Assembly (NCBI GenBank): GCA_026002855.1
Contig: BPGD01000001.1
Location: 868,001-932,000 of the forward strand
Source of the DNA: Bryobacteraceae bacterium
GTDB lineage: Bacteria; Acidobacteriota; Terriglobia; Bryobacterales; Bryobacteraceae
Direction of reading: 5' to 3'
DNA: 64,000 bases
The number at the start of each line of letters is the position of its first letter. Position 1 is the first letter of the stretch. A model generated the notes under the pieces. It saw only the letters and a list, made by a program, of their open reading frames with translations, did no database searches and had not been told where the DNA came from. The position numbers and the translations under genes are program-made. This document shows, one piece after another, positions 11,959-40,569 of the stretch.

Positions 11959-13857
11959 ATGATCTCACGACGTCTGCTGCTGGCAGCGCTGCTGCCGCTG
12001 CTTGTCCCCGCACAACCGAGAACCGTTGCCCAGACGGCGCCGCCGGCCAGCGACCGGGCGGCCTACATCCGGCAGCATTATACGAAGCATGAATTCCTGA
12101 TCCCGATGCGAGACGGCGTGCGTCTGTTCACGTCCGTTTACGTGCCCAAGGACCGGAGCCGCGCCTATCCAATATTGCTTCTCCGGACGCCCTACACGGT
12201 GGCGCCGTATGGGGCGGAAAATTACCGCGCCAGTCTGGGCCCTGCCAGCGAGAAGTTCATGCGCGAGGGGTTCATCTTCGCCTATCAGGACGTGCGCGGA
12301 CGCGGCCGCAGCGAGGGCGAGTTCGTCCATGTGCGCCCGTACATCCCGGACAAGAAGACAAACAGGGACGTCGACGAGGCCTCGGACACCTACGATACGA
12401 TCGACTGGCTGGTGAAGCACGTTCACGGAAACAACGGCCGCGTGGGCATGTGGGGCATCTCGTATCCGGGATTTTATGCGGCGATGGGAGCGCTGGATTC
12501 GCATCCGGCGCTGAAGGCGGTGTCGCCGCAGGCGCCGGTGATCAACTGGTTCATCGGCGATGATTTTCGCCACAATGGCGCGCTGTTCCTGGTGCACGCA
12601 TTCAATTTCCTGGGCATTTTCGGACGGCCGAGGCCGTCCGAGGGCCTGCTGCCGGAATCGCGCTTCGAAATCGACGGGCCTGACGCCTATACGTTCCATC
12701 TTTCCATCGGACCGCTGGCGAATTACGAAGAAAAACTGTTCAAAGGCCAGGTGAAATTCTGGCGTGAATTGCTGGAAAACGACACTTATAACGAGTTCTG
12801 GAAGTCGCGCGACCTGCGGCCGCACCTCCGGAACATGAAGGTGGCCATGCTCACCGTCGGCGGGTGGTTCGATGCCGAGGACGTGTACGGTCCCTTGCGG
12901 CTGTATGAGTCAGCGGAGAAGCAGAACCCCGGGGCGGTGAATCTGCTGGTGGAGGGGCCGTGGAGCCACGGCGGCTGGGCGCGCACGGATGGCACGCGGC
13001 TGGGCAACGTGAGCTTCGCCGTAAATACGTCCCGGTTTTTCCAGGACGAAATTGAATTTCCGTTTTTCATGCAGCACCTGAAGGGCGCGGGCGGCGGAAA
13101 TCCGCTTCCCGAAGCCTACGTTTTCGAAACGGGCCGCAACGAGTGGCACCGCATGGACGCCTGGCCGCCGCAGCAGGCGCGCCGGCGCACCTACTATTTC
13201 CGGGAAGAGGGCCGGCTTTCGACGCAGCCCCCGGAGACCGCAGGCGAGGCCTTCGACGAGTATCTTTCCGATCCAAACCGGCCCGTCCCCTTCCTGCCGT
13301 TCATCGACCGCGGGATGAACTACGACTACATGGTGGAGGACCAGCGTTTCGCCTCAACGAGGCCGGACGTGCTGGTCTATCAGACCGGGCCGCTTGAAGA
13401 GGACGTGCGCGTGGCCGGGCCGCTGCGCGCGGTGCTGCATGTGTCGACGAGCGGGACGGATGCCGACTGGGTGGTGAAGCTGATCGACGTGTTTCCGAAC
13501 GACGCGCCGGATCCCCAGCCGAATCCGAAGGAGATTCGCATGGGCGGCTATCAGATGCTGGTGCGCGGAGAGCCGTTCCGCGGGCGATTCCGCACGGGCT
13601 TCGACCGGCCGACGCCGTTCACGCCGGGCAAGATGGAGCCGGTCGAGTTCGAGCTGCCCGACGTATTCCACACATTCCGGCGCGGACACCGCATCATGAT
13701 CCACGTGCAGAGCTCTTGGTTCCCTCTAGTGGACCGGAACCCGCAGAAGTTCGTGCGGATCCACGAGGCGAAGGCCAGCGACTTCGTAAAAGCGACACAC
13801 CGCGTCTACCGCTCCCGCCAGGCGGCGAGCGGCGTGGTGCTGCCTATCCTCGAGTAG
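11959..13857 (+). CDS. CocE/NonD-type hydrolase (X-Pro dipeptidyl-peptidase S15-like)
   Basis: About 632 residues. An exported N-terminus (MISRRLLLAALLPLLVPAQ) is followed by an alpha/beta-hydrolase with RDGVRLFTSVYVPKD, a YQDVRGRGRSEGEF strand-turn and the nucleophile in GISYPG near residue 175. A C-terminal jelly-roll domain begins around VYQTGPLEEDVRVAGPL. This is the CocE/NonD acylase plan; substrates range from X-Pro peptides to acyl esters. ATG 11959 is preferred over GTG 11950 because GAGAGG lies 8 bases upstream. The gene follows the site-2 protease by 12 bases and overlaps the end of the convergent prepilin peptidase by 14 bases. Confidence 0.87.
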   Translation: MISRRLLLAALLPLLVPAQPRTVAQTAPPASDRAAYIRQHYTKHEFLIPMRDGVRLFTSVYVPKDRSRAYPILLLRTPYTVAPYGAENYRASLGPASEKFMREGFIFAYQDVRGRGRSEGEFVHVRPYIPDKKTNRDVDEASDTYDTIDWLVKHVHGNNGRVGMWGISYPGFYAAMGALDSHPALKAVSPQAPVINWFIGDDFRHNGALFLVHAFNFLGIFGRPRPSEGLLPESRFEIDGPDAYTFHLSIGPLANYEEKLFKGQVKFWRELLENDTYNEFWKSRDLRPHLRNMKVAMLTVGGWFDAEDVYGPLRLYESAEKQNPGAVNLLVEGPWSHGGWARTDGTRLGNVSFAVNTSRFFQDEIEFPFFMQHLKGAGGGNPLPEAYVFETGRNEWHRMDAWPPQQARRRTYYFREEGRLSTQPPETAGEAFDEYLSDPNRPVPFLPFIDRGMNYDYMVEDQRFASTRPDVLVYQTGPLEEDVRVAGPLRAVLHVSTSGTDADWVVKLIDVFPNDAPDPQPNPKEIRMGGYQMLVRGEPFRGRFRTGFDRPTPFTPGKMEPVEFELPDVFHTFRRGHRIMIHVQSSWFPLVDRNPQKFVRIHEAKASDFVKATHRVYRSRQAASGVVLPILE

Positions 13858-14359
13858 AAGCCCAGAGCACGAGCAGCGTGGCTGCGGCAATGGTGACCGC
13901 CCGCGGCAGCCCCAGGGACTTTTCGCCGCCGGCTTCGAGCTCGCTTTCGCGCTGGAAGCGGAACATGCGAGGGATGTTGCGCAGCGTGCGCAGGAAGCGG
14001 CCGCGGACGATGACGAGCACCAGTGCGGCGATCCCGCCGAGGATGGCGTCCAGAACAAAAATGACGAACATGTTCTGGGCGCCGGCCAGCGCACCGACGG
14101 CGCCCATGAGCTTGACGTCGCCTCCGCCCAGCCAGCGCATGACGAACAGCGGAACGAAAATCAGCGCCGCCAGCCCGAGTCCCGCGGCGGAGAACTTCAG
14201 GCCCTCCCAGCCACGCAGCCACGTATGCAGGCCGAGCCCGGCGAGGATGGCGCCGAGGGTGAGCCAGTTGGGGATCTCGCGGCGCTTCAGGTCCGTGACG
14301 GCGGCGATGAGCACGACGGCGGCAAGCACCGGCTCGATGAGCTCTGGCAAAGGCTTCAT
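13844..14359 (-). CDS. A24 prepilin peptidase (TadV/CpaA-like)
   Basis: A 171-residue multi-span membrane protein. The two catalytic aspartates of the family are visible in AVTDLKRREIPN (~D23) and GGGDVKL (~D81). The N-terminal methyltransferase domain of full PilD enzymes is absent, as in the short CpaA/TadV type that processes Flp-type pilins. No pilus or secretion genes lie in this window, so its substrates are encoded elsewhere. The start ATG sits in a short intergenic space after the cytochrome gene's stop. Confidence 0.87.
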   Translation of the reverse strand: MKPLPELIEPVLAAVVLIAAVTDLKRREIPNWLTLGAILAGLGLHTWLRGWEGLKFSAAGLGLAALIFVPLFVMRWLGGGDVKLMGAVGALAGAQNMFVIFVLDAILGGIAALVLVIVRGRFLRTLRNIPRMFRFQRESELEAGGEKSLGLPRAVTIAAATLLVLWASTRG

Positions 14360-14413
14360 GGCAGGATTGCGACGGGCGAACCCACCATTGTGTCAGAGCG
14401 GCAGGCGGAACCG

Positions 14414-15406
14414 TCAATTGGCCTGCGTGGCCAGTTGCGGGTGCAGCACAACCGGATTGTAGACGGGCCTCAAAGTGCGCAGGTAGGCGTAAATGGCCCG
14501 GAGGTCTTCTTCTTTCATCCGGGAGAAGCCAAACCACGGCATCAGGGTGAAATTCGCCTGGACAGCTCGTGGCGCGGACGCATACGTCAGTCCGCCATAG
14601 TCGCGAAATCTGCGCACGAAGCGCTCCTCTGTCCAGGAGCCGATACCGGTTTCGTGATCCGGGGTCAGATTGGCGCTGCGGACGATGAACTGTCCCACGG
14701 CGAACTCGTGCCCGCCGGCAAATTCCCTGCCCTGAACCGGCTTGCCTTTGCTCAGCTCCGAGTGGCACTGAATGCAGGCAAGGCCCGCGAGAAACTCGCC
14801 ATAGCGCACGGCATCGCGGGGGGAAGGCGGCTGGGGCGGCGTGAGCATCGGCGCTGGCTCGAAGCGGTTCAGCACGCTCACCGGAAACTGGAGCGAAGTG
14901 CGGGGCAGAGGATTTTTCACCGGCGGCAGGCTGTTCATGTAGGCGACGAGGGAGTAGATGTCTTCATCGCTCATCTTTGCAAATTGCCGGTATGGCATCA
15001 GGGAAAAGAGCGCGCGCCCGTCGCGAGAAATTCCTTCGCGGATGGCGCGGATTTTTTCACCGTCCGTCCAGCGGCCAACGCCCGTTTCCGGGTCAGGCGT
15101 GATGTTTGGTCCGACAATGGAGCCTGGGAAACCGAGCTCCTTCGGGAAGACAAAACCGGCTCCGGTCCTCGCCGGGTCGGCCGGCATGGCGAATTTCGAG
15201 GCGTCGCGGGGACTGTGGCAGCCGGCGCAGTCGGCGACACTGTGAAAGAGATAACGCCCGCGCTCGACCCGCTCAGGGGTGATCTCGACGCGGATTGCAG
15301 CCGCAGGCCGTGATTTCGGCGTGGCGAACGCCACGAAAATTCCCGCGGCCCCGGCTAGGGCTGCCAGAGACACGGCGACAGTGATTCCCGGATGTTTCCA
15401 GCCCAC
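14414..15406 (-). CDS. dihaem c-type cytochrome
   Basis: A 330-residue protein with an N-terminal membrane anchor or uncleaved signal (ITVAVSLAALAGAAGIFVAFA) and two cytochrome c domains. Haem sites are CAGCH (~60) and CIQCH (~210). Candidate axial methionines lie in SLMPYRQF and TLMPWFGF, and each half carries a PNITPD/ANLTPD...G.G.WT segment typical of dihaem cytochromes that accompany alcohol or sugar dehydrogenases. It is likely a periplasmic electron carrier facing the cytoplasmic membrane. No dehydrogenase partner is adjacent. An upstream AGGAGG (rc of 15409-15414) lies just before the ATG. Confidence 0.88.
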   Translation of the reverse strand: MGWKHPGITVAVSLAALAGAAGIFVAFATPKSRPAAAIRVEITPERVERGRYLFHSVADCAGCHSPRDASKFAMPADPARTGAGFVFPKELGFPGSIVGPNITPDPETGVGRWTDGEKIRAIREGISRDGRALFSLMPYRQFAKMSDEDIYSLVAYMNSLPPVKNPLPRTSLQFPVSVLNRFEPAPMLTPPQPPSPRDAVRYGEFLAGLACIQCHSELSKGKPVQGREFAGGHEFAVGQFIVRSANLTPDHETGIGSWTEERFVRRFRDYGGLTYASAPRAVQANFTLMPWFGFSRMKEEDLRAIYAYLRTLRPVYNPVVLHPQLATQAN

Positions 15407-23497: not shown

Positions 23498-25003
23498 TTA
23501 CCGGTGCACAGGCCCGGCGCGTTTCAGGCGCGGCCTGAGCTGTTCGGGGAAGTCCGCCGCCTTTGAGCGGTCCGGATGGCGCAGATTCATTTGAGGTCCG
23601 CGGTCCGGCTGGAGCGGAATGTACATGCCGCCGGTCTGCTCGAGCACGCGCCAGAGCCGGGCCCGCAGCTCCTCGGCCGTGCGCCGGTGCGCGGGGTCGA
23701 AGATGAGGTTCCGGCTCTCGATCGGGTCTTCTTCAAGGTCGTAGAGTTCGTCGATGTCCCACAGCCCGTGGACGCGCACGAACTTGTGGCGGCGCGTGCG
23801 GAGCGCGTGGACCGTGGGCGTCTGTGGGAAGTTCCGTTCCCAGTAATACTCGTAGAGCAGCTCTTCCCGCCATGGGACGCTTTCGCCGCGCGCCAGCCGG
23901 AGCCAGCTTGTGCCGTCGAGGCCCTGCGGCGGCGTCACGCCGCAGGCTTCGAGCACGGTGGGCATGATGTCCAGGTTGGCGACCATTTCGTTGACGGCGG
24001 TGCCCGCGCGGAACAGCTCCGGACAACGCGCCAGCAGGGGGACGCGCATGGACTCCTCATACGCGGTGCGCTTGTCGATGAGGCCGTGCTCGCCGAAGGC
24101 GAAGCCGTTGTCGCCCATGTAAATCAGGAGCGTCGAATCGAGCTCGCCGCGCGCTTTCAGCGCATCCAGCACGCGGCCGATGCTTTCGTCGACGCCCATC
24201 AGCGTCTCGGCATACCGCTTGTAGTATTCGCCGATGTCGAGATCCGAGTGGTAGGGATATTCGACGCCATGCCAGGAATTGCGCTGGTTCTGGACCCACA
24301 TGGGGCGGCCCTGCGCATATTCACCGGTGGCAGCCATGGTCTTCGGATAGACGAACTGCGCGTCCCGGTACATGCCCTTGTGGCGCGGGGCGGGCTCGAA
24401 CTCGGCATGGACGGCCTTGTGGGAAAGGTAGAGAAAATAAGGCTGATTTTTTGGCAATGAATCCAGCCATTCCATCGCATAATCAGTGAGTTCGTCCGTA
24501 ATATAGCCTTTTTGCGGCACTTTTTTTCCATTGATGTTCAGGCCGCTGGCGCTGGGATTGTACGTGCCCTGGCCGCGGAAGCTGATCCAGTGGTCGAAGC
24601 CTGGCTGCGGGTCATCGCCCTCGTGGCCCATGTGCCATTTGCCGATGAAGGCCGTCTTGTAGCCTGCTTTCTGGAGATACGAAGGGAAGAACACGGTGCC
24701 TTGCGGAATGGCCGTGTTGTTGTCGACGATGCGGTGCCGGTGGGCGTAAACGCCGGTGAGGATGGTGGCGCGGCTTGGGCTGCACAGGGCAGTGGTGACG
24801 AAGGCATTGCGGAAGTGCACGCCTTCGGCGGCGAGCCGGTCCATCTGCGGAGTGCGCAGCCAGGGCTGCGCCTTCATGAAGCCCATCGCGTCCCAGCGAT
24901 GGTCGTCGCTCAGGATGAAGATGACGTTGCGGCGCCTGGCGGCCTGCGCGGTGCCGCGAAGAATGGCCGGAGCTCCGGCCAGGAGTCCGCGTCGGGTGAG
25001 CAT
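23498..25003 (-). CDS. type I sulfatase, Cys-type
   Basis: 501 residues. The N-terminus TRRGLLAGAPAIL resembles a Tat signal. The formylglycine site is CSPSR (~75) in TTALCSPSRATILTG, so the cysteine must be oxidised by a maturase. Metal-binding LSDDHRWD near the N-terminus and GDNGFAFGEHGLIDK near residue 300 complete the alkaline-phosphatase-like active site. The overall length and motifs such as GKWHMGHEG fit exported sulfatases acting on sulfated polysaccharides; exact substrate unknown. A radical SAM maturase for this reaction lies at 39358-40569. Confidence 0.92.
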   Translation of the reverse strand: MLTRRGLLAGAPAILRGTAQAARRRNVIFILSDDHRWDAMGFMKAQPWLRTPQMDRLAAEGVHFRNAFVTTALCSPSRATILTGVYAHRHRIVDNNTAIPQGTVFFPSYLQKAGYKTAFIGKWHMGHEGDDPQPGFDHWISFRGQGTYNPSASGLNINGKKVPQKGYITDELTDYAMEWLDSLPKNQPYFLYLSHKAVHAEFEPAPRHKGMYRDAQFVYPKTMAATGEYAQGRPMWVQNQRNSWHGVEYPYHSDLDIGEYYKRYAETLMGVDESIGRVLDALKARGELDSTLLIYMGDNGFAFGEHGLIDKRTAYEESMRVPLLARCPELFRAGTAVNEMVANLDIMPTVLEACGVTPPQGLDGTSWLRLARGESVPWREELLYEYYWERNFPQTPTVHALRTRRHKFVRVHGLWDIDELYDLEEDPIESRNLIFDPAHRRTAEELRARLWRVLEQTGGMYIPLQPDRGPQMNLRHPDRSKAADFPEQLRPRLKRAGPVHR

Positions 25004-25124: not shown

Positions 25125-25501
25125 TGCTCTATACGGGACTGGAGCACACGGCCATCGCCTCGCCGGATCCGCCGCGGCTGGCACAATGGTATGTGGACAA
25201 GCTCGGATTTGTCATCAACTACAGTTACGGCGGCAATTATTTTGTGAAGGCGCCCAACGGAGCGATGCTGGAAATCATCCCCAGCGAGGGCGATCCGTTG
25301 CCGGCGCAGATGAAGACGCCAGGGCTGCGGCATCTGGCGGTGATGGTCTCCGACTTTGACGCCGCCACCGAAGACCTGAAACGGAAGGGCGTGAACATCG
25401 TCGCCGGACCGCTGGATCTTTCCGGCAACCGGCTGCTGTTTTTCACTGACCTGGACGGCAACCTTCTGCACCTGATTGCGCGCCCGGCGCCCCTGCCCTA
25501 G
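25124..25501 (+). CDS. VOC (glyoxalase/dioxygenase) family protein
   Basis: 125 residues with the paired beta-alpha-beta-beta-beta units of the vicinal-oxygen-chelate fold: LEHTAIASPDPPRLAQWYVDKLGFVI and LRHLAVMVSDFDAATEDLKRKGVNIV. Candidate metal ligands are His8, Glu50 (LEIIPSE), His72 and the Asp/Asn near DLDGNLLHLI. VOC members include glyoxalase I, ring-cleaving dioxygenases and antibiotic-binding proteins; a specific role cannot be assigned. It precedes an MFS exporter in the same direction, 19 bases away, perhaps as an operon. Confidence 0.87.
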   Translation: MLYTGLEHTAIASPDPPRLAQWYVDKLGFVINYSYGGNYFVKAPNGAMLEIIPSEGDPLPAQMKTPGLRHLAVMVSDFDAATEDLKRKGVNIVAGPLDLSGNRLLFFTDLDGNLLHLIARPAPLP

Positions 25502-25520
25502 AGAAAGCGCGAAGCACGCC

Positions 25521-26726
25521 TTGATCCGCAGGATCTTTTCCGCCTTTCACTCGCGCGATTTCCGGCTGATGTGGACCGGAGCCTTCGTGTCGAGCATCGG
25601 CACATGGATGCAGAAACTGGCGCAGAGCTGGCTGGTGCTGCAACTGTCCGGGTCGGCGTTCTACCTCGGCCTGGACAATTTTCTGGGCGAGATTCCGATC
25701 TTTCTGCTGGCACTGGTGGCCGGCGTCGCCGCCGACCGGATCGACAGGCGGCGCCTGCTGATCGGTTCGCAGTTCGTGCAGATGAGCTGCGCATTTACGC
25801 TGGCGGCGCTGTTTGCGTTGGGCCACGTCCGGGTCTGGCACATCCTGACGCTGTCTTTCATCGTGGGCACGGCGCAGGCGTTCGGCGCCCCGGCCTACCA
25901 GTCCCTGCTGCCCTCGCTGGTACCGCGCGAGCACCTGCCGAACGCGATTGCGATGAACTCGATCCAGTTCAACCTGGCGCGCGTCATCGGGCCGGTGGCC
26001 GGCGGGCTGGCCCTGACGCACCTGGGCGCGGCGTGGTGCTTCGGGCTGAACGGACTCTCCTATGTGGCCGTCATCACTTCGCTGCTGCTGATCCATGTGC
26101 GTTACATCCCGGCGCCCGCGCAGGAGTCCGTGATCGAGTCCATGAAGCAGGGGCTCGGTTTCATCCGCGGCCGCGAGGGGATGCTGCCGCTGATCGTGGT
26201 GGCGTTCATCTGCACCTTTCTCGGCATTCCGATCCTTGTCTTCCTGCCGGTGTTCGCGCGCGACATCTTCGCCGGCAACGAGGCCACTTACACGGTTCTG
26301 CTTTCGACGGAAGCGGCGGGAGCGATCACCGGGGCGCTGCTGGTGGCGGCCCGCGGACGCCGGCCGAATCTGGGCCGCGACGCGCTGATCGGGCTGATCG
26401 CGCTCGGGGTCTTCGAGGCGCTGTTTGCGTTTTCGCGAGACTTCCGTTTCAGTCTCGTGTTCGTCTACTTCGGTGGCATGGCGCTGATCGGCTGCTTCGC
26501 GCTGCTGAGCTCGCTGGTGCAACTGATCGCCACCGATGAGATGCGCGGCCGCGTGATGAGCCTGTACAACATCGCCTTCCGCGGCGGGATGCCGATCGGC
26601 AGCCTGGTGACGGGGGCGTTGGCACCCGTTTTCGGCATCTCCGCCGTGGTGGGGACATATGGAATCGTGCTCGCCTGCCTGGCGGCGTACCTGCTTTTCT
26701 TCCACCGCCGGCTGGCGGCCCTATAG
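25521..26726 (+). CDS. MFS exporter (EntS-like)
   Basis: About 401 residues with 10-12 hydrophobic helices. The N-terminal FHSRDFRLMWTGAFVSSIGTWMQKLAQSWLVLQLSGSAFYLG and the loop-2 motif GVAADRIDRRRLL are typical of the MFS_3/EntS group of drug or siderophore exporters. NAIAMNSIQFNLARVIGPVAGG is the conserved TM5 segment. The start is uncertain: no ATG precedes the conserved region. TTG at 25521 avoids overlap with the VOC gene and is listed; TTG at 25476 would overlap it. Neither has a strong ribosome-binding site. Confidence 0.88.
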   Translation: MIRRIFSAFHSRDFRLMWTGAFVSSIGTWMQKLAQSWLVLQLSGSAFYLGLDNFLGEIPIFLLALVAGVAADRIDRRRLLIGSQFVQMSCAFTLAALFALGHVRVWHILTLSFIVGTAQAFGAPAYQSLLPSLVPREHLPNAIAMNSIQFNLARVIGPVAGGLALTHLGAAWCFGLNGLSYVAVITSLLLIHVRYIPAPAQESVIESMKQGLGFIRGREGMLPLIVVAFICTFLGIPILVFLPVFARDIFAGNEATYTVLLSTEAAGAITGALLVAARGRRPNLGRDALIGLIALGVFEALFAFSRDFRFSLVFVYFGGMALIGCFALLSSLVQLIATDEMRGRVMSLYNIAFRGGMPIGSLVTGALAPVFGISAVVGTYGIVLACLAAYLLFFHRRLAAL

Positions 26727-26732
26727 CGCGAA

Positions 26733-28376
26733 CTAGGCTTCGGCCCAGTTGCGGCGTTCAATGAACGTCTGCGGCTCGTAAGTCACACCCCGGGAGAGCC
26801 GTTTCTCTTCCCGACGCGTGAGCCAGAGCAGGACGGGACCGAACGCCGCGCCCGCGGCGGCGGCCAGCGCGCCGCATTCGCGGCGGATCTCTTCGCGCAG
26901 CTCGTGGACGCGCGCGGCGATTTCGGCGTTCTTCTTCCGCATGTGCCGCTCCATCGCCCACAGCACGGCGGCGTAGGAGGTCCGAAGGGCCTGAGCCTCG
27001 CGCTCGAAGCGCTCCCGCACGCGCCAGTCCGGATAAAAGCGGTATTTCTTCACGCCCTCCAGCGTGGTGCGGCAGATGCGGTACAGCGAGGGGCCATTCA
27101 GCTCGAAGTCCCGCCAGAAGGCCCAGTCGAGGAACTTCTTCGAGTCGTCGCGGCTGATGTGCGGATGGCGCCAGTTGAACTTGTACTGGCCGTGGACGTC
27201 GGCCAGATCCACGTCGATCAGCGTGCCTTCCTTCTCCATGCGCTGGTGCAGCGGGGTGCCAGGCAGCGGCGTGTAGAGCATGAACTGGTGGAAATCCGTC
27301 TCATGCCTGCAGGCGTAGTCCACTTCATCGCGGATATTGTCGGGCGTGTGGTGGTGCATGCCGATGATGGTGGAGCCGAGGACGCGGATACCGTGGCTGC
27401 GCAGCTCGCGCACCAGGCTGAGCGTGTCCGAACCCGCCAGCTTGGCGTAGCCGCTCTGCGGCGACTCAAGGCCCATCCAGATCCACGACACGCCGAGCTC
27501 GACAAGCTCTTCCATGCTGTACTTGCGGATGGCGTTGGCCGAAGAGAAGACGTACAGGTCCCAGCTTTTGCCGCCTTCCTTCATGCAGTCAAGCAGCTCC
27601 ATGGCGCGGCGGCGGTGCAGCAGGAAGTTTTCGTCCATGACGAAAAACGATTTGAATCTGAAGGCGCGCTCGGCCTTTTCCATGGCCTCGTAAATTTCAC
27701 GCCCGGTCTCGAAAAAGTTGATGAAATTGCCCTTGCCGCCGAAAAAGGCCGACGTGGTGCAGAAGTCGCAGCCCATGGGACAGCCGACGCTGGGGATGAT
27801 GGTGGCCGCGGTGGAGCCAAGATTGCCGGGCAGCTTCAGTCCCATGACGCGGTGGCCGAAGCCGCTGGCGATGAGCGGATGCTCGATCTTCCGGTTCGGG
27901 TCCTGGCCGAGGAACTCGCGCATCCAGCGGACGCCTTCGCCCTTGACGATATGGTCGGCGTCGATCATGTGCTCGAGGCCCGGGATGGCGGCCACATGGC
28001 CGCCGACAACGATGACCGATTTCGGTGAGACGCGGCGGACGATGCGGCACATTTCGCGCACCTTGCCGACGTTGACGATGATCGAGCTGATGCCGACCAC
28101 GTCGTAGTCGTGGTCGCGCAGCTCCTGTTCGAACTGTTCCTTCGTTGGGAAATCGAGCACCGTCGAGGGGTTCTCGATGTTGGCCTGGATGAACATGATG
28201 CCCCAGGAACGGTGGAACATGCGGAGCGAATACGGGCCCTGGGCCCGCGTCACCTGGTTATGGTAAAGCTCCATCGGGTTGATGGAGCGGCTTCCGTACT
28301 CGTCGTCCCTTGCATAGGGGCCAAAGACGCTCGTCAGCAACACCCGGGCCCTGGGCCCTTTGGGATGCACAATCAT
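26733..28376 (-). CDS. B12-binding-domain radical SAM protein
   Basis: About 547 residues. Residues ~1-170 form a Rossmann-like cobalamin-binding-type domain (HDYDVVGISSIIVNVGKVREMCRIV, VIVVGGHVAA). The radical SAM barrel follows with the cluster motif CPMGCDFC near 198, VFSSANAIRKYS and GLESPQSGYAKL. The C-terminal ~120 residues are helical and unassigned. The canonical DxHxxG base-off motif is not apparent, so cobalamin use is unproven. Relatives include methyltransferases acting on lipids and natural products. The start ATG at 28376 lies about 55 bases downstream of a TACAAT box (28433-28438, minus strand). It converges on the MFS gene, 6 bases away. Confidence 0.85.
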   Translation of the reverse strand: MIVHPKGPRARVLLTSVFGPYARDDEYGSRSINPMELYHNQVTRAQGPYSLRMFHRSWGIMFIQANIENPSTVLDFPTKEQFEQELRDHDYDVVGISSIIVNVGKVREMCRIVRRVSPKSVIVVGGHVAAIPGLEHMIDADHIVKGEGVRWMREFLGQDPNRKIEHPLIASGFGHRVMGLKLPGNLGSTAATIIPSVGCPMGCDFCTTSAFFGGKGNFINFFETGREIYEAMEKAERAFRFKSFFVMDENFLLHRRRAMELLDCMKEGGKSWDLYVFSSANAIRKYSMEELVELGVSWIWMGLESPQSGYAKLAGSDTLSLVRELRSHGIRVLGSTIIGMHHHTPDNIRDEVDYACRHETDFHQFMLYTPLPGTPLHQRMEKEGTLIDVDLADVHGQYKFNWRHPHISRDDSKKFLDWAFWRDFELNGPSLYRICRTTLEGVKKYRFYPDWRVRERFEREAQALRTSYAAVLWAMERHMRKKNAEIAARVHELREEIRRECGALAAAAGAAFGPVLLWLTRREEKRLSRGVTYEPQTFIERRNWAEA

Positions 28377-28488
28377 TCGGACACTCACTTTCTCTTGGGG
28401 GAAACTCGGACTACGAGCCCCGGATGTCCTAATTGTACACCCCACGCATGCCCTCAGCCGGGGAAACCGCGAAAAGACGCCGCCGCGG

Positions 28489-29853
28489 TCAGACGCTGAC
28501 GCTGGGCAGACCGGCCAGCGCCATCGCCAGCTCGCTTTCGTCGTACTGCTGATCGACGAGCCTGCCGGCAAAGTAGTCCATGTAAGCCTGCATGTCGAAG
28601 TGGCCGTGGCCGCAGAGGTTGAACAGGATGGTCTCGCTGCGGCCTTCCTGTTTGCAGCGCAGCGCCTCGTCGATGGCGCCGCGGACGGCGTGGTTGGCTT
28701 CGGGCGCCGGCAGGATCCCTTCCGCGCGCGCAAACAGCACGCCCGCCTCGAAGCAGGCCAGTTGCGGATAGGCCCTGGCCTCGATCAGGCCCAGCTCCTT
28801 GCAGTGGCTGACCAGCGGCGCCATGCCGTGGTAGCGCAGGCCGCCGGCGTGGAAGCCCGGAGGCGTGAACGTGCTGCCGAGCGTGTGCATCTTCACGAGC
28901 GGCGTCAGGTGGGCGGTGTCGCCGAAATCGTAGGCGTATTTGCCGCGAGTCAGCGACGGGCAGGCCGCCGGCTCCACCGCCACGATGCGCATCTTCCTGC
29001 CGCCGCGCAGCATGCGGCCGATAAACGGGAAAGCAATGCCGGCGAAGTTCGAACCGCCACCGGTGCAGCCGACCACCACGTCGGGTTCGTCGCCAGCCAT
29101 GGCAAGCTGCTCGATGGCCTCCTGGCCGATGACCGTCTGGTGCAGCAGCACGTGATTCAGCACGCTGCCAAGGGCGTACTTGGTGTCCGCGCTCTGGGCG
29201 GCGACTTCGACGGCTTCAGAGATCGCAATGCCGAGGCTGCCGGGATGATCGGGCCTCTGGGCGAGGATTGCGCGTCCGCTCTGCGTTTCGTTCGAGGGGG
29301 ACGCCACGCAGCGCGCTCCGTAAGTCTCCATCAACGCGCGCCGGTATGGCTTCTGCTCATAGCTGACGCGCACCATGAAGACCTCGATCTTCAGCCCGAA
29401 GAAGGCTCCGGCCAGAGCCAGCGACGAGCCCCACTGCCCGGCCCCGGTCTCAGTGACGATGCGTCGCACGCCGGCCTCCTTGTTATAGAAGGCCTGGGCG
29501 ACGGCCGTGTTCGGCTTGTGCGATCCGGCCGGGCTGACGCCCTCGTACTTGTAATAGATCTTCGCCGGCGTGTCGAGGGCCTGCTCCAGACGGCGCGCGC
29601 GATACAGCGGCGTGGGGCGCCACTGCCGGTAGATGTCCCGCACCGGTTTCGGGATCTCGATCTCGCGTTCCCCGGAGACTTCCTGCTCGATGAGGCTCAT
29701 CGGGAAGATCACTTCCAGGTCGGCCGGCGTCACTGGCTGCCTGGTGGCCGGATGGAGAACCGGGGGCGGAGGGACGGGCAGATCGGCCGCGATGTTGTAC
29801 CAGAATTTCGGCAGGCGGCTTTCGTCCAGAACGTATTTGATCTCGTCGCTCAT
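28489..29853 (-). CDS. trpB2: tryptophan synthase beta-like enzyme, TrpB2 type
   Basis: About 454 residues, longer than canonical TrpB, with the TrpB2-type N-terminal extension ([26 protein letters not shown]). The PLP lysine is in GSHKPNTA (~118), [12 protein letters not shown] is the substrate loop and [10 protein letters not shown] binds the cofactor phosphate. TrpB2 makes tryptophan from indole and serine without a TrpA partner; no trpA is near. ATG 29853 is chosen (GGGAGA about 10 bases upstream); GTG 29871 would add six residues. A TACAAT box (29890-29895, minus strand) lies upstream. Confidence 0.92.
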
Positions 29854-30070
29854 ATGTATCAGGTCTCCCACGCGAAGGGTGAACCCGCGATTGTATCAAC
29901 ACCGCGCCGGCGTCCGGCCAGGCAGGACGCACGCCGCGGAAGATGGCAGGAGGCCCAGCACAAGGCCGCCCCGTCCGTTGCCGCGAGCGGGGTGGTTAGA
30001 ATGAAGGTGAGCCACCCGCAAGCCTCGGGCGGATCGTCAAAACATATCTTCCGGTTCGTGTTCAGACCCA

Positions 30071-32203
30071 GTGGACGTGACGTTGCATCCGGCTGCCCCC
30101 TTCCGCATCGCAGTCTCCGCTTCTTTCACGGCGGAGCCTCTGGAGGCGTTCTTCCGGTTTTGGAGCCGGAGACTGAGTGCAGGGTTCGAGCCGGTGTTCG
30201 CGCCCTACAACCAGATCCTTCAGACGCTGCTTGACCCGGGCTCCGTGTTCGCGGCCAACCACGCCGGGGTCAACGTCATCCTTGCGCGCGCGGCGGACCT
30301 GGCCGCGTCGCCGGCCTCCGGCCCGGGGCAGCGCGAGCAGCTGGCCGCGCACGCGCAGGAGCTGGCGTCGGCGGTGCGCAGTGCAGCGGCGCGGTTCGCC
30401 GTCCCTCTGCTGTTCGTGCTTTGCCCCTCTCCGGACGAAGAAGAGTTCCAGGCTGCGGAGATGATCCTGCGCGATGCACTCGCCGGTGCGGCGCAGATCC
30501 ACTTCATTGACCATGGGGAGATCCTGCGCCTCTATCCCGTGGCCCAGGTCCATGATGCGCACGCGGCCCGGATCGCACGGATCCCGTACACGGAGGAGAT
30601 GTACGCAGCCCTGGCCACGATGATCGTCCGGCGGGCGCACACGCTTTCGATGCCGCCCTACAAGGTGATTGCCGTCGACCTGGACAACACGCTGTGGCGC
30701 GGCATCTGCGGCGAGGACGGGCCGGCCGGCGTCGTGCTGGACGCGCCGCGCCGGTGGCTGCACGAGTTTCTGCTCCAGCAACGAAACGCCGGCATGCTGC
30801 TGGCCATCGTTTCGAAAAATAATTTCGCGGACGTGGAGGAGACATTTGCCGCGCACCCGGAGTTCCCGCTTCGGCTGGAGCATTTTGCCGCGTGGCGCAT
30901 CGACTGGAACCCCAAGTCCGTGAACCTCGCCTCGCTGGCCGCCGAGCTGAACGTGGGGCTGGACACGTTCATCTTTCTGGATGACAACCCGAAGGAGTGC
31001 GCCGAAGTGGCATCTTCGGCTCCGGAGGTTCTCTCCATCGCGCTGCCGGCCAATCTCGAGGAGCTGCCCGAATTCCTGGCCCACGTCTGGGCCTTCGATC
31101 ATCCGAAGGTGACTGAGGAGGACCGGCGGCGGGCGGAGATGATCGGGCGCTCGCTCGAATTCTCGCGGGCCGCCCGGTCGGCGGGGTCGCTGGATGAGTT
31201 CATCGCCTCGCTGAACCTCCGCGTGGATGTACAGCCGCTCGATCCGGAGCGGCTGCCGCGCGCGGCGCAACTGACGCAGCGGACCAACCAGTTCAACACG
31301 ACCACGATCCGGCGCACGGAGACCGAGCTGGCCGCGCTGGCCGCCCAGCCGGGCGCGCGCATTTTCACGGCGGAGGTGAGCGACCGTTTCGGCGAATATG
31401 GGCTCACTGGGCTGGCGATCGTTTTCACGCGGCTCAACGAGCTGTACGTCGACTCGCTGCTGCTTTCCTGCCGTGTGCTCGGCCGGGGCGTGGAGCACCG
31501 CATTCTGGCGCGCCTGGCGGAGCTGGCTCTCGACGAAGGCGTTTATACGGTGACGGTGCCGTTTGTGCCGACGGCGAAGAACGCCCCGGCCCGCGCGTTT
31601 TTGGACTCCATCCCGTTTGGCGCCTGCTACGAGGACAATGGCGGATTCGTTTACCGCTTCCCGGCGGTCGAATTGCAGACGCTGCGATGGGCGCCATCGG
31701 CCGCGGCCCCGGCGGTGCCGGAGCGGCCCGCGACGGCGGCGCCGGCCGTACGCTCTTTTGCCGGATATGCGGACATCGCCGCCGCCCTGCGCCGACCGGC
31801 GCAGATTCTTGACGCGGTGCGGCGGGAGGCCGCCGCCGGGCGCGAGGCGCCGCAGGCGGGAACATTTTCTTCAGAAACCGAAGAAAGGCTGGCCAAAATC
31901 TGGTCTGAACTACTGCAAAAGCCGGTGACCGATCCGGCAGCCAATTTCTTCGATCTCGGCGGTCATTCGCTGCTTGCCGTGCTGCTTCTCATGCGGATCC
32001 GCGAGGAATTCGGTGTCGAATTGTCGGTGGACGAGGTCTATTCCGCGTCGCTGACGCTCGGCTCGCTGGCCGCCGCCATCGAGGCGAGGCAGCTGGGTGC
32101 GGCCGATCCGGAAGAATACCAGGCGCTGCTGGCCGAGATCGAGAACCTCTCTGACGAGGAAGTGCGGGCGCTGCTGGAACGCGAACTCGGCCAGGAAGAG
32201 TGA
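30071..32203 (+). CDS. FkbH-like HAD-IIIC protein with C-terminal phosphopantetheine carrier domain
   Basis: 710 residues. Residues ~1-190 are the FkbH-type N-terminal region. The HAD motif is DLDNTLWRGICGEDG near 203, with LLAIVSKNN and IFLDDNPKECAEV following. Residues ~380-545 are the C-terminal FkbH region (QLTQRTNQFNTTTIRRTE; DSLLLSCRVLGRGVE). After an Ala/Pro linker, a carrier domain at ~600-680 has NFFDLGGHSLLA, with the phosphopantetheine serine at ~632. FkbH enzymes take a glyceryl group from 1,3-bisphosphoglycerate and load it on a carrier protein; here the carrier is fused. Two glycosyltransferase genes and a fused thioesterase follow within a few bases. The GTG start has no good ribosome-binding site; a TAGAAT box lies at 29997-30002. 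Confidence 0.9.
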   Translation: MDVTLHPAAPFRIAVSASFTAEPLEAFFRFWSRRLSAGFEPVFAPYNQILQTLLDPGSVFAANHAGVNVILARAADLAASPASGPGQREQLAAHAQELASAVRSAAARFAVPLLFVLCPSPDEEEFQAAEMILRDALAGAAQIHFIDHGEILRLYPVAQVHDAHAARIARIPYTEEMYAALATMIVRRAHTLSMPPYKVIAVDLDNTLWRGICGEDGPAGVVLDAPRRWLHEFLLQQRNAGMLLAIVSKNNFADVEETFAAHPEFPLRLEHFAAWRIDWNPKSVNLASLAAELNVGLDTFIFLDDNPKECAEVASSAPEVLSIALPANLEELPEFLAHVWAFDHPKVTEEDRRRAEMIGRSLEFSRAARSAGSLDEFIASLNLRVDVQPLDPERLPRAAQLTQRTNQFNTTTIRRTETELAALAAQPGARIFTAEVSDRFGEYGLTGLAIVFTRLNELYVDSLLLSCRVLGRGVEHRILARLAELALDEGVYTVTVPFVPTAKNAPARAFLDSIPFGACYEDNGGFVYRFPAVELQTLRWAPSAAAPAVPERPATAAPAVRSFAGYADIAAALRRPAQILDAVRREAAAGREAPQAGTFSSETEERLAKIWSELLQKPVTDPAANFFDLGGHSLLAVLLLMRIREEFGVELSVDEVYSASLTLGSLAAAIEARQLGAADPEEYQALLAEIENLSDEEVRALLERELGQEE

Positions 32204-32206
32204 GCC

Positions 32207-33409
32207 GTGCGCATCCTGCTCGCCTCGAACGCGTCCTATGATCCCCCAAGGGGCGGCTCCACGCGGTCGAACCTGGCCTGGTTGCGGCGGCTGGCCGCCG
32301 CCGGGCATTCCTGCGCCGTGGCGGCGTCGGCGAGCGGGACGGCGCGCGTGTCCGAAGTGGACGGCATCGTCATTCATTCCGTTCCGGCGCTCTCGCTGCA
32401 TGCGGCCGAGCTCGGGCGCCTGATCCGGGAGTCCGGCCCGGACTGGGTGCTGGTTTCGAGTGAAGACCTCTCCCATACGCTGCTGCGCGAGGCGGCGCGT
32501 TCGGCGCCCGGGCGCGTGGTCTACCTCGCCCACACGCCGCAGTTCTTTCCCTTCGGGCCTGAGTCCTGGCACACGGACCCGCCGGCGGCCGAGCTCGTGC
32601 GCCGCGCTGCCGCCGTGGTCGCCATCGGCCATCACATGGCTGCCTACATCCGGCAGCATCTCGGCCGGGATGCCGCCGTAATTCACCCTCCCATTTACGG
32701 GGATCCGCCGTGGCGCAATCTTTCCGATTTTTCGAGAAAACGGGTTTTGATGATCAATCCCTGTGCGGTGAAAGGAATCTCGATTTTCCTTGAACTGGCC
32801 AGACGTTTCCCGGAAATTCCCTTCGACGCGCTCCGCGGCTGGGGCACCACACCGGAAGACGAGGCCCGGATGGCGGCCCTTTCCAACATCACTCTGCTGG
32901 ACAGCGTCGCCGACATCGAAGAGTTTCTGGCCCGGGGCTCCGTGCTGCTGATGCCGTCGCTCTGGTATGAGGGATTCGGGCTGATCGTGATGGAAGCGAT
33001 GCTGCGCGGAATTCCCGTCATCGCGTCGGATTCCGGCGGCCTGCTCGAAGCGAAGGCCGGCACCGGGTACGTGATTCCGGTGCGGCCGCCGGAGGGCTAC
33101 CGGATGGAATTCGACGCGGCCCATATGCCGCGACCGGTGATTCCGCCGCAGGAGATCGGGCCGTGGGAGGCGGCGCTCGGAAAGCTTCTGGAAGACGAAG
33201 ACGAGTACCGCGCCGAAAGCGGCCGTTCCCGCCGCGCCGCGGAAGCGTTCGTCGGCGGCATCCAGCCTGCCGCGATGGAGGATTTTCTCGCTTCCCTGCC
33301 CCGCGGGGCGGCCCTGCCGCCGCCCGCCGAACCCGAGCCGAAGCCGACGGACGCGGCCCGGCGCGCGCTGCTCGTGAAAAGGCTGAAAGAGCGGAGCCGG
33401 CGATCATGA
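32207..33409 (+). CDS. GT4-type glycosyltransferase with NRPS-linker-like tail
   Basis: 400 residues, GT-B fold. The N-terminus MRILLASNASYDPPRGGSTRSN holds the donor-side glycine loop; MINPCAVKGISIFLELARRFP and PSLWYEGFGLIVMEAMLRGIPVIASDSGGLLEAKAG form the nucleotide-sugar site with the GT4 E-x7-E motif. The C-terminal ~25 residues (PKPTDAARRALLVKRLKERSRR) resemble the short helix seen at domain borders of peptide and polyketide synthetases. The GTG start is 3 bases after the FkbH stop, and the TGA overlaps the next ATG (ATGA). It is clearly paralogous to the next gene. Sugar and acceptor unknown. Confidence 0.9.
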   Translation: MRILLASNASYDPPRGGSTRSNLAWLRRLAAAGHSCAVAASASGTARVSEVDGIVIHSVPALSLHAAELGRLIRESGPDWVLVSSEDLSHTLLREAARSAPGRVVYLAHTPQFFPFGPESWHTDPPAAELVRRAAAVVAIGHHMAAYIRQHLGRDAAVIHPPIYGDPPWRNLSDFSRKRVLMINPCAVKGISIFLELARRFPEIPFDALRGWGTTPEDEARMAALSNITLLDSVADIEEFLARGSVLLMPSLWYEGFGLIVMEAMLRGIPVIASDSGGLLEAKAGTGYVIPVRPPEGYRMEFDAAHMPRPVIPPQEIGPWEAALGKLLEDEDEYRAESGRSRRAAEAFVGGIQPAAMEDFLASLPRGAALPPPAEPEPKPTDAARRALLVKRLKERSRRS

Positions 33410-35436
33410 AGATCCTGCTGGCGCACAATTCGACCTACTTCCCCTCGCTGGGCGGCGGCGACAAGAGCAACCGGCTGCTGATGGAGGCGCTTGCCGCGCG
33501 GGGGCACGACACGCTGGTGGTGACGCGCGCCCCGGACTTTTCAGAAAGATCGCATGCGGAGCTGAAACAGGAGCTGGCGGCGCGCGGCATCGGGGCGGAG
33601 GAAGACCACGAGTCGCTCAGCTATACGCTGAACGGCGTGCGTGTGCGCGCGCTGACGCGGCAGCCGCACCTGCGCGCGTTTTTCCAGTCCTGTCTGCACG
33701 CGTTCGACCCGGACATCATCATCACGTCCACCGACGATCCGGGACAGATCCTGTTCGACCTGGCGATCCGTCACCCGCGGGCGCGCGTCGTCTATCTGGT
33801 GCGCGCGACCATTGCGGTGCCCTTCGGGCCGGACAGTTCGATGGTGAGCTCGGCCAAGACAGCGAATCTGCGCCACGCGGACCTGATCATCGGCGTCAGC
33901 CACTATGTGGCCGGCTACGTGCGGGAGTGGAGCGGCCTGGACGCCATCCATGTGCCGATCTCGCTGCTGGAGCCCGGTTCGGAGTTCCCGCAGCTTGGTT
34001 CGTTTGACAACGAGTTCGTCTCGATGGTGAACCCGTGCGCCGTAAAGGGCATCACCATTTTTCTGGAGCTGGCGCGGCGGATGCCGCAGCTCCGCTTCGC
34101 CGCCGTGCCCACGTGGGGCACGACGCCCGTGGAGCTCGACGAGCTGCGCCGCGTGCCGAACATCACGCTGCTGCCGCGGGTCGACAACATCGACGAGCTG
34201 CTGCGGAGGACGCGCGTGATGCTGGTGCCGTCCATCTGGGCAGAGGCGCGTTCCCGGATCGTGCTGGAGGCGATGAGCCGCGGCGTGCCGGTGGTGGCTT
34301 CCGACGTGGGCGGTCTGCACGAGGCCAAGCTGGGAGTCCCGTATCTGATCCGCGTGAACCCGATCGTCCGCTACCAGCCCGCGCTGGATGCGTCCATGGT
34401 CCCCGTGGCGGAAGTCCCACCACAGGACGTGGCTCCCTGGCAGCGCGTACTCGAGCGGCTGACAACGGACCGCGCGCACTGGGAAGAGATCGCCGCCGCG
34501 AGCCGCCGTGCGGCGCTGGAATATGCCGCCTCGCTGTCGATCGAGCCCTTCGAACATGCACTGCTCGAGCTGCTGAAAAAGCCGAAGAAGGCCCCGCCGC
34601 AGGCGGCGCCGAAGCCGGCGATGAGCGAGGAGAAGCGCCGGCTGCTGGCACTGCGGCTGGCGCGGCGGGCCGCCGGCAAGCCGCCTGCCACGCATGACTG
34701 GTTCCCGAACATCCACTCGGCGCCGCCGGACCGGCTGCGGCTGTTCTGCTTCCCCTGGGCCGGGGGCGGGGCGTTGCCGTTCCGTTCCTGGAGCGAAGCG
34801 CTGGGGCAGGTGGCGTTCGTCGTGCCGGTGCGGCTGCCGGGGCGCGAGTCGCGCGCGTCCGAAAAGCCCTTCGAGCGGATGGAGCCGCTGATTGAAGAGC
34901 TCGTCGCGCAGATCCGGCCGTTCCTGGACGCACCGTTCTCTTTCTTTGGACACTCGATGGGCGCCGGCATCGCTTTCGAGCTGACCCGCGCACTGCGGCG
35001 CGTGGGGCTGCCATTGCCACGCTCGCTTCATGTCTCCGGCGCCAGGGCGCCGCAGTTCCGTCTGAACCATGTGCCGCCGCCTGAGCCGTCCCTGCGCGAT
35101 TTCATTGAGGAGCTGCGCCGCCTGGAAGGATTTCCACCGAGCGTTCTCAACCAGCCTGAGCTCCTGAAACTCGCCCTGCCGGCGCTGCTTGCCGACGCGC
35201 GCCTGTACCGCCATTACGTCTATCGGCCGGAGGCGCCGCTCGACATCCCTATCTTTGCCTATGGCGGCGACGCGGACCCGAACGTCACCGCGGCGCACCT
35301 GGAAGCCTGGCGCGAACAGACGACGGCGCGCTTCGAACGCGTGGATTTCCCCGGCGGGCATTTCTATTTTGAGGCGGCGTTGCCGGCCCTGCTGGCGGTG
35401 CTGCGAACCCATTTGGCGGCACTGGAAAGCCGTTAA
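33406..35436 (+). CDS. glycosyltransferase-thioesterase fusion
   Basis: 676 residues. Residues ~1-390 are a GT4 glycosyltransferase paralogous to the preceding one (MVNPCAVKGITIFLELARRMP; PSIWAEARSRIVLEAMSRGVPVVASDVGGL). A short helix MSEEKRRLLALRLARRAAG (~405-425) follows, then a type II thioesterase (~435-676): FCFPWAGGG, the nucleophile GHSMGAG (~516), GGDADPNV and GGHFYF with the catalytic His (~650). Such thioesterases hydrolyse acyl groups from carrier proteins in RifR/GrsT fashion. Fusion to a glycosyltransferase is unusual and ties the sugar-transfer step to the carrier domain encoded two genes upstream. The ATG overlaps the previous stop. Confidence 0.9.
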   Translation: MKILLAHNSTYFPSLGGGDKSNRLLMEALAARGHDTLVVTRAPDFSERSHAELKQELAARGIGAEEDHESLSYTLNGVRVRALTRQPHLRAFFQSCLHAFDPDIIITSTDDPGQILFDLAIRHPRARVVYLVRATIAVPFGPDSSMVSSAKTANLRHADLIIGVSHYVAGYVREWSGLDAIHVPISLLEPGSEFPQLGSFDNEFVSMVNPCAVKGITIFLELARRMPQLRFAAVPTWGTTPVELDELRRVPNITLLPRVDNIDELLRRTRVMLVPSIWAEARSRIVLEAMSRGVPVVASDVGGLHEAKLGVPYLIRVNPIVRYQPALDASMVPVAEVPPQDVAPWQRVLERLTTDRAHWEEIAAASRRAALEYAASLSIEPFEHALLELLKKPKKAPPQAAPKPAMSEEKRRLLALRLARRAAGKPPATHDWFPNIHSAPPDRLRLFCFPWAGGGALPFRSWSEALGQVAFVVPVRLPGRESRASEKPFERMEPLIEELVAQIRPFLDAPFSFFGHSMGAGIAFELTRALRRVGLPLPRSLHVSGARAPQFRLNHVPPPEPSLRDFIEELRRLEGFPPSVLNQPELLKLALPALLADARLYRHYVYRPEAPLDIPIFAYGGDADPNVTAAHLEAWREQTTARFERVDFPGGHFYFEAALPALLAVLRTHLAALESR

Positions 35437-39357: not shown

Positions 39358-40569
39358 ATGCCGGCCGGGGATCCCTTTCCCATCCTGGGCCATGACTATC
39401 CGCTGACGGCGATGCCTGGCCCGGCGCCGCGCATCGGGTCGGTTCTCGTCAAGCCGGCCTCCGCCGTCTGCAATCTGGACTGCGAATACTGCTTTTACCT
39501 CGACCGCGAGGCGGATCCTTACCGGGACCTGCCGTCGCGGATCATGCCGGCAGAAGTCCTGGAGCGCCTGGTAGACGGATTTCTTTTCTATTCCTACCCA
39601 GTGTCGGTTTTTGCATTTCAGGGCGGAGAGCCAACGCTGGCCGGACTGGCATTTTTCGAAAAGCTGGTGGAATTGCAGCAGAAATACGGCCGGCCGGGAC
39701 ACACCATTTCCAATTCGCTCCAGACGAACGGCATCCTGCTGGACGACGCCTGGTGCGAATTCCTTCACCGGTATCAGTTCCTCACCGGCATTTCGCTGGA
39801 CGGGCCGGAAGACGTCCATGACCGCTACCGTTTCAACCGTGCCGGCCATCCCACCTGGCGCAGGGTGATGGAGGCGGTAGAACACATGAAAAAACACGGC
39901 GCGGAATTCAATATCCTCTGCGTTCTTTCCCAGGCCAACGTGGAAAAACCGCGCGAATTATACAGGTTTTTCCGCTCCATTGGTGCCGATCATCTGCAAT
40001 TCATTCCGCTGGCGGAGTTTCACCGGGACGGAACGCCGATGCCCTTTACGATCACACCGGAGCAGTACGGACGCTTCCTCTGCGAGCTGTTCGATGTGTG
40101 GTGGCCGGACCGGAGGCGCGTGCGCATCCGCTTTTTTGACAACCTGGCCGAGGCTCTTGCCGGCATGAAGCCGGGCTCGTGCACGATGCACAAGGCGTGC
40201 GACAGTTACGTGGTGGTGGAGTACAACGGCGATGTCTACCCGTGCGACTTCTTCGTGGAATCCGGCTGGAAGCTGGGCAACCTGATGCTGGATTCCTTCG
40301 CCGAAATCGCGCGCCGGCAGCGCCGCCATTCGTTCGCCTTGAAAAAATCCCTGCCGCACGAAGAATGCCGCGCGTGCGAATATCAGACGATCTGCCACGG
40401 CGGCTGCCCGAAATTCCGTCATGGGCCGGCGGGCCGGTTTGAGGACCTCGACTATTTCTGCCGCGCTTACAAAATGATCTTTGCGCGGGCCGCCGGGCCG
40501 CTGCGCCGTGAAGTGGAGAAGATCCTCGGGACAGGCCGCAATGCCGCGGCGGTCCCCAGCCCTTACTGA
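39358..40569 (+). CDS. anaerobic sulfatase-maturating enzyme (radical SAM)
   Basis: 403 residues. The radical SAM cluster site CNLDCEYC (~38-45) starts a barrel continuing through FAFQGGEPTLAGLAFFEKLV and NSLQTNGILL. The C-terminal SPASM-like region has the cysteine series CTMHKAC, YPCDFFVESGWKLGNL and CRACEYQTICHGGCPKFR for two further Fe-S clusters. These enzymes oxidise a Cys or Ser in sulfatases to formylglycine without oxygen. The natural client in this window is the CSPSR sulfatase at 23498-25003, some 14 kb away. It converges on the CorC-like gene. Confidence 0.93.
   Translation: MPAGDPFPILGHDYPLTAMPGPAPRIGSVLVKPASAVCNLDCEYCFYLDREADPYRDLPSRIMPAEVLERLVDGFLFYSYPVSVFAFQGGEPTLAGLAFFEKLVELQQKYGRPGHTISNSLQTNGILLDDAWCEFLHRYQFLTGISLDGPEDVHDRYRFNRAGHPTWRRVMEAVEHMKKHGAEFNILCVLSQANVEKPRELYRFFRSIGADHLQFIPLAEFHRDGTPMPFTITPEQYGRFLCELFDVWWPDRRRVRIRFFDNLAEALAGMKPGSCTMHKACDSYVVVEYNGDVYPCDFFVESGWKLGNLMLDSFAEIARRQRRHSFALKKSLPHEECRACEYQTICHGGCPKFRHGPAGRFEDLDYFCRAYKMIFARAAGPLRREVEKILGTGRNAAAVPSPY

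Follow-up and report, generated by a model that had tools for sequence, protein, structure and literature searches.

In the genome of a Bryobacteraceae bacterium we found a three-gene cassette which, as judged from its sequence and at about even odds (0.5), would encode a stand-alone carrier-bound route to mono- or diglycosyl-glycerate, with release of the product by a thioesterase. The cassette occupies positions 30071-35436 of a 64,000-nucleotide stretch (contig BPGD01000001.1, positions 868,001 to 932,000; hereafter the window). All of its genes lie on the plus strand, and they encode an FkbH protein fused to a carrier domain (FkbH-PCP), a GT4 glycosyltransferase (GT1) and a second GT4 enzyme fused to a type II thioesterase (GT2-TE). 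The first-pass annotation had proposed the same succession of glyceryl loading, glycosylation on the carrier and thioesterase release. The FkbH score and motifs, the conservation of the unit and the relatives of the GTs speak for that interpretation, whereas the absence of ketosynthase, adenylation and condensation domains does not extend to all relatives of the cassette.

Cassette layout and conservation in Bryobacteraceae

The features of the cassette are listed in Table 1. FkbH-PCP and GT1 are separated by 3 bases (32204-32206), and GT1 and GT2-TE overlap in an ATGA (33406-33409). Coordinates, domains and junctions were all as first annotated. The start of GT2-TE is the ATG at 33406, the ORF finder having given a longer start at 33163. 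A promoter/terminator scan gave no signal exceeding that of shuffled sequences.

Table 1. Features of the cassette and of a nearby transporter gene (window coordinates).
Feature	Position	Strand	Length	Basis and remarks
FkbH-PCP	30071..32203	+	710 aa	TIGR01686, PF00550, invariant columns, model
GT1, GT4-type glycosyltransferase	32207..33409	+	400 aa	Pfam/NCBIfam GT4 matches, alignment, tree
GT2-TE, whole gene	33406..35436	+	676 aa	GT4 + PF00975
GT2 domain of GT2-TE	33406..34635	+		GT4 matches, EX7E EARSRIVLE, GT-B fold
GT2/TE linker, predicted helix at residues 408-422 (SEEKRRLLALRLARR)	34636..34690	+		Model secondary structure; L413 invariant, L414 nearly so
Type II thioesterase domain	34690..35436	+		PF00975; GHSMG (serine 517), D624, H652
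MFS exporter-type gene (MFS_3)	25476..26726	+		PF05977; about 3.3 kb upstream of the cassette; kept in four fetched genus relatives

The window genome is a single contig of 4.44 Mb with one FkbH and three PP-binding domains. A Pfam scan found no adenylation (A) or condensation (C) domain within the cassette, which is thus not an NRPS C-A-PCP module, and there was no ketosynthase (KS) among the scanned neighbours. The genome as a whole gave no match to PF00668, which rules out that the cassette is the margin of an undetected NRPS cluster, and its AMP-binding domains (6 matches, 5 over the cut-off) all lie outside the cassette. The earlier claim that no KS, A or C domain is nearby therefore stands for the genome neighbourhood of the window but not for the group, in which some relatives carry FAAL-ACP-C before FkbH. 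Besides the cassette PCP, one PP-binding domain belongs to a 112-aa frame, presumably the fatty-acid ACP, and the other to an 827-aa protein with AMP-binding, PP-binding and acyltransferase domains (L109:2156-4639). The only PPTase detected in the genome is of the AcpS type, so that AcpS must activate the NRPS-type PCP, a point that we count against our preferred explanation. The same goes for the lack of nucleotide-sugar genes next to the cassette. The MFS_3 gene is a possible partner. Around the cassette we also observed a sulfatase gene (23498-25003) and an anaerobic sulfatase maturase (39358-40569; TIGR03942 over the cut-off), which flank it, as well as a B12-binding radical SAM protein (26733-28733) beside a TrpB-like PLP enzyme (28489-29871), cassette-adjacent in the four fetched genus relatives.

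We searched 200 genomes of the family Bryobacteraceae, which are related to one another and include many incomplete assemblies, with FkbH-PCP and with an alignment of GT2-TE. The former matched 156 of the 200 at E 0.001 and the latter 108 of the 200 at 1e-60. Under strict limits that we chose from the tables (1e-100 for FkbH, 1e-160 for GT2-TE), each part was present in 95 genomes: 92 had both, three FkbH only (G032, G124 and G039, where the match sits on a 3.7-kb contig), three GT2-TE without a strong FkbH match (G065, G068, G158), and 102 neither. A search for the three-gene order across genomes had been suggested as a check, and the order FkbH, PCP, GT1, GT2, TE was indeed kept in 36 of the 40 loci fetched among the listed family FkbH-PCP matches. 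The exceptions were L058, truncated where its contig stops, and three loci with lower-scoring FkbH proteins and no GTs (L073-L075), the FkbH of L073 belonging to an NRPS and that of L074 to a PKS. Chance juxtaposition is ruled out by this conserved order and by the co-occurrence across the 200 genomes, although relatedness and incomplete assemblies make the p-value of a Fisher test on the latter an unfair measure. GT1, GT2 and TE form one open frame in 7 of the 36 family loci, in several lineages, and a single protein in 13 of the 45 full-cassette loci of the named-genome scan described below (best 80 of 167 stretches encoding a GT relative). The linkage is broken in SKYG38, where GT2-TE (L126) and GT1 (L153) lie on different contigs with no FkbH in the fetched stretch, and L155 has GT2-TE alone; these cases, and the three genomes with GT2-TE but no strong FkbH match, also count against our preferred explanation. 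Overall, the cassette is conserved as a unit, and no C, A or KS domain was seen in its genome neighbourhood in the window. An MFS-like transporter gene, a possible exporter, was observed near the cassette in 12 of the 36 family loci, in most cases directly after it and on the other strand (e.g. L040 8777-9817); it belongs to a different subfamily from the MFS_3 of the window (24-29% identity).

Predicted glyceryl loading, glycosyltransferases and thioesterase

FkbH-PCP comprises an N-terminal domain, a HAD-IIIC/FkbH core (DLDNTLW, 203-209), a GNAT-like domain, the carrier domain and a C-terminal tail (LSDEEVRALLE). The FkbH part scored 292.1 bits against TIGR01686 (cut-off 146.65), and the NRPS-type carrier domain 59.1 bits against PF00550. 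The HAD DxDxT motif and the conserved cysteine in SCR are marks of the FkbH family; D203, D205 and T207 as well as S466-C467-R468 showed no variation in two alignments, one of 22 and one of 30 FkbH sequences. The carrier motif GGHSL (serine 633) was likewise invariant in the aligned FkbH-PCP sequences. The structural model (pLDDT 86.2, pTM 0.66), built like that of GT2-TE from the sequences of the window and of related loci, matched 3slr best in the fold libraries, its C-terminal part resembled GNAT enzymes, and no solved full-length FkbH was among the matches. With a score far over the cut-off, invariant motifs and a fused carrier, FkbH-type loading is the only reading of this family with a precedent, and the protein would be expected to work in that way.

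GT1 and GT2 matched only GT4-type models, and both keep the EX7E motif (EGFGLIVME in GT1), which places them among GT4 enzymes. In the model of GT2-TE (pLDDT 88.5, pTM 0.60) the closest folds to GT2 were sucrose-phosphate synthase (Z 31.3 over 339 residues, 2.7 A), MshA (Z 30.9) and BshA (Z 29.6). EGFGL was found in 48 of 50 GT1 sequences and EAR(S/G)R in 56 of the 59 best GT2 matches, the remaining three being GTs in an NRPS context; EARGR occurred in 1 of 20 NRPS-type GTs. Since these donor-site motifs differ consistently, GT1 and GT2 probably use different donor sugars, and we would guess that the arginines of the GT2 motif are a sign of an acidic sugar. In the tree, GT1 and GT2 formed separate clades of 14 rows each (100 and 99, both starred) among thiotemplate-associated GTs, the deep branches being weakly supported and the outgroup branch very long. 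A tandem duplication within the cassette was not favoured, given the separate clades among these GTs, although the weak deep branches qualify this. A C-terminal helix-like motif (ARRALLVKRLK in GT1) was present in 31 of 32 separate GT1 proteins, a count that includes the window and drops L137 for its disrupted frame, versus 0 of 13 GT1-GT2 fusions. Docking through this helix was considered and was not significant, as only 2 independent pairs lay on well-supported branches. FkbH tails and GT C-terminal helices were similar in stand-alone and NRPS forms.

We then looked at GT relatives beyond the family. Among 396 genomes of the phylum, three matched in the GT part at 1e-60, namely the window's own, G250 and G382, and 26 other genomes matched in the TE part only. 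G250, from another family of the phylum, encodes a 2963-aa NRPS that starts with a GT4 (L107:170-9061; GT-C-A-PCP-C-A-PCP-TE). A scan of named genomes gave 167 stretches encoding a GT relative, of which the best 80 were kept, yielding 78 loci whose surroundings were typed by tblastn domain probes: 45 full cassettes, 12 partial ones and 21 with other surroundings. The following counts refer to this best-80 set. C, A, PCP or KS domains were found in 19 of the 21 non-cassette loci, no thiotemplate domain being seen in L114 and L119. The GT was fused to a C domain in 12 (L111, L112, L113, L115, L116, L117, L123, L124, L135, L138, L151, L186), to an A domain in one (L118) and to PCP-TE in another (L158); in five (L112, L117, L123, L124, L151) FkbH-PCP lay immediately upstream. 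Of the 19 thiotemplate loci, 14 showed no FkbH-PCP directly upstream, some contigs ending there, and the GT subfamily is thus not tied to glyceryl, which counts against our preferred explanation. The organisms include Pyrinomonadaceae, Holophagales, Paenibacillus, Chitinophaga, Herpetosiphonaceae and Chloroflexota, and L115 is a Bryobacteraceae record with its own NRPS. Sequence comparison thus places both cassette GTs in a GT4 subfamily that is otherwise encoded mostly within thiotemplate machinery, across phyla.

Several of these loci deserve description in their own right. The Chloroflexota locus L158 encodes an 834-aa GT4-PCP-TE protein (12129-14633) beside another GT and NRPS modules. On two Streptomyces plasmids (L189, NZ_CP107920.1; L195, NZ_CP108122.1) an ACP, two GTs, a TE and FkbH-PCP are followed by nucleotide-sugar genes; only one of these GTs is of the subfamily (the other is PF06722), the TE gene runs in the opposite direction and a gene with a condensation domain lies near, all of which weighs against our preferred explanation. 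The same clusters also encode an FGE-type and a GH38-type protein. In a Niveispirillum plasmid the GT relative was found, and the other cassette parts were not found nearby.

A front end FAAL-ACP-C-FkbH-PCP occurs in at least three family loci (L125, L130 and L141) and in Paenibacillus L151, each with PF00501, PF23024, PF00668 and two PP-binding domains; FAAL models scored best in both loci tested (L130 and L151). In L122 a C-FkbH-PCP is cut by the contig end. The product of these relatives is probably acylated too. The four front-end loci of the family cluster together in the tree (88% SH-aLRT, not starred), so that acylation may be particular to their lineage. The Paenibacillus curdlanolyticus locus (L151:3073-19078) continues after FAAL-ACP-C-FkbH-PCP with a GT and then GT-C-A-PCP-C-A-PCP modules, and is predicted to be an acyl-glyceryl glycopeptide cluster. 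Together with the NRPS-loading FkbH-PCP and GT units of other phyla, the FAAL-ACP-C relatives place the cassette within a thiotemplate theme, as a stand-alone offshoot of it.

The TE domain scored 145.4 bits against PF00975, and S517, D624 and H652 were invariant in 31 sequences. Its closest folds were RedJ (Z 31.0, 41% identity), BorB and RifR, as expected for a type II thioesterase, with the difference that it is fused to GT2 and thus not free-standing. Enzymes of this class frequently serve to clear mis-loaded carriers instead of releasing a product, which counts against our preferred explanation. In this case we infer that the TE releases the product, although it may only edit.

Proposed route and competing readings

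FkbH forms glyceryl-carrier from 1,3-bisphosphoglycerate according to the available text of two studies (PMC7489565, PMC8949500). In the cassette, FkbH would in all probability take the glyceryl group of 1,3-bisphosphoglycerate, strip the phosphate and load the glyceryl as a thioester on the phosphopantetheine of the fused PCP. With nucleotide sugars as donors, GT1 and GT2 may then attach one or two sugars to hydroxyls of the carrier-bound glyceryl or of the first sugar, and the TE fused to GT2 would hydrolyse the thioester to give mono- or diglycosyl-glycerate. Glycosylation on the carrier is suggested by the position of a GT between glyceryl-PCP and C and by the fusions of GT to PCP-TE and to TE. 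Indeed, GT relatives are built into carrier machinery, in five loci right after FkbH-PCP, and this makes on-carrier glycosylation followed by TE release reasonable. In one sub-lineage and in Paenibacillus, FAAL-ACP-C probably first esterifies the glyceryl with a fatty acid, giving an acylated version. The window genome has no C domain, so the product there would be unacylated, or another acyltransferase would be needed.

Alternatively, the GTs could work on their own to make a glycoside or glycolipid, with the TE as an acyltransferase that moves the glyceryl from the PCP onto the glycan, which would give a glyceroyl ester of a sugar. The TE-GT fusion would let glycan and glyceryl-PCP meet, and MshA and BshA, among the nearest GT folds, act on small soluble acceptors. 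We nevertheless consider this unlikely: the GT lies between glyceryl-PCP and the next C domain in the NRPS relatives, and in L158 a PCP is fused between GT and TE, both of which fit a carrier-bound acceptor better, and by its sequence the TE falls among hydrolytic type II enzymes. The FAAL-ACP-C-FkbH-PCP order in L125, L130, L141 and L151 raises another reading, in which the product is a fatty-acylated glycosyl-glycerate, a glycolipid whose acyl chain would be transferred in trans in the window genome. AMP-binding enzymes encoded elsewhere in that genome would suit it, as would the same FAAL/ester-forming C/FkbH logic in the described part of vioprolide synthesis (PMC8949500). It appears quite unlikely for the window, given the missing condensation domain and the grouping of the four front-end family loci, which may make acylation a lineage trait.

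That the GTs and the TE work on unrelated acceptors, or only edit, with glyceryl-PCP being used elsewhere, e.g. in a cell-surface polysaccharide pathway, would agree with the editing habit of such TEs. We regard it as distinctly improbable, considering the gene fusion, the order and the co-occurrence of all parts, and the scanned neighbours include no polysaccharide genes. Finally, homology to NRPS parts, and a GT1 C-terminal helix that precedes a C domain in the NRPS relatives, could point to a decaying NRPS-cluster remnant with no function of its own, a very improbable view that we rejected because dozens of family members keep their frames intact and their catalytic motifs unchanged, and because the GT1-GT2-TE fusion recurs.

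Known systems and significance

Sugar-glycerate compounds are compatible solutes and lipid heads, and are made from free precursors. The GpgS/GpgP and MpgS routes start from free phosphoglycerate or glycerate and use a dedicated non-GT4 synthase and a phosphatase. The carrier-bound route proposed here would lead to the same class of end products, gluco- and mannosylglycerate in those cases, but with a carrier protein and GT4 enzymes, and the cassette GTs are not of the GpgS/MpgS kind. As in vioprolide synthesis, where a FAAL and an ester-forming C domain accompany FkbH according to the available text (PMC8949500), FkbH would load glycerate on a carrier, there in an NRPS setting and with the FAAL-C-FkbH order seen in L125, L130, L141 and L151. 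Unlike in vioprolide synthesis as described there, the window FkbH is preceded by neither FAAL nor C domain, the cassette lacks an A domain, and in place of peptide modules come GT4 enzymes and a type II TE fused to one of them.

For suomilide, dysinosin and varlaxin, methylation and sulfonation have been proposed to act on the glycerate while FkbH has it loaded on the carrier, and domains of their loading modules tailor the FkbH-PCP glycerate according to the portions available to us (PMC13122637, PMC6520454, PMC10143770). In the window, by contrast with these accounts, the tailoring would be GT4 glycosylation, with no NRPS elongation; the suomilide GT is proposed in the accessible text to act after release and elsewhere on the molecule (PMC13122637). 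The glycerate-utilisation operon of tetronates and the methoxymalonyl-ACP pathway, as far as the source at hand covers them (PMC7489565), also make glyceryl-ACP with an FkbH-like enzyme and a carrier. The window differs from them in having GTs and a TE instead of dehydrogenases, an acyltransferase and a FabH-like ligase, the last of which was absent from the scanned neighbours.

Searches of the open-licence PMC literature yielded no description of the cassette or of PCP-acting GT4 domains, in agreement with the earlier remark that no system of this form was known. Each part is known; what would be new among glycerate-loading thiotemplate systems is the combination and the putative carrier-acting GT4 enzymes. 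We propose, tentatively and at somewhat less than an even chance, that a phylum-spanning, undescribed GT4 class glycosylates PCP-bound acyl groups, and that in one acidobacterial family two such enzymes with FkbH-PCP and a TE make up the smallest thiotemplate line, producing (acyl-)glycosyl-glycerates without adenylation, condensation or ketosynthase domains. If this is true, it would represent new chemistry for sugar-glycerates and make glycosylation a step carried out during thiotemplate synthesis itself. It would also give a rule for prediction: where the GT subfamily occurs in NRPS clusters, as it does in several phyla, it would point to glycosylated building blocks that may escape current product predictions. 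The cassette family is common in soil acidobacteria, a group whose chemistry is little known.
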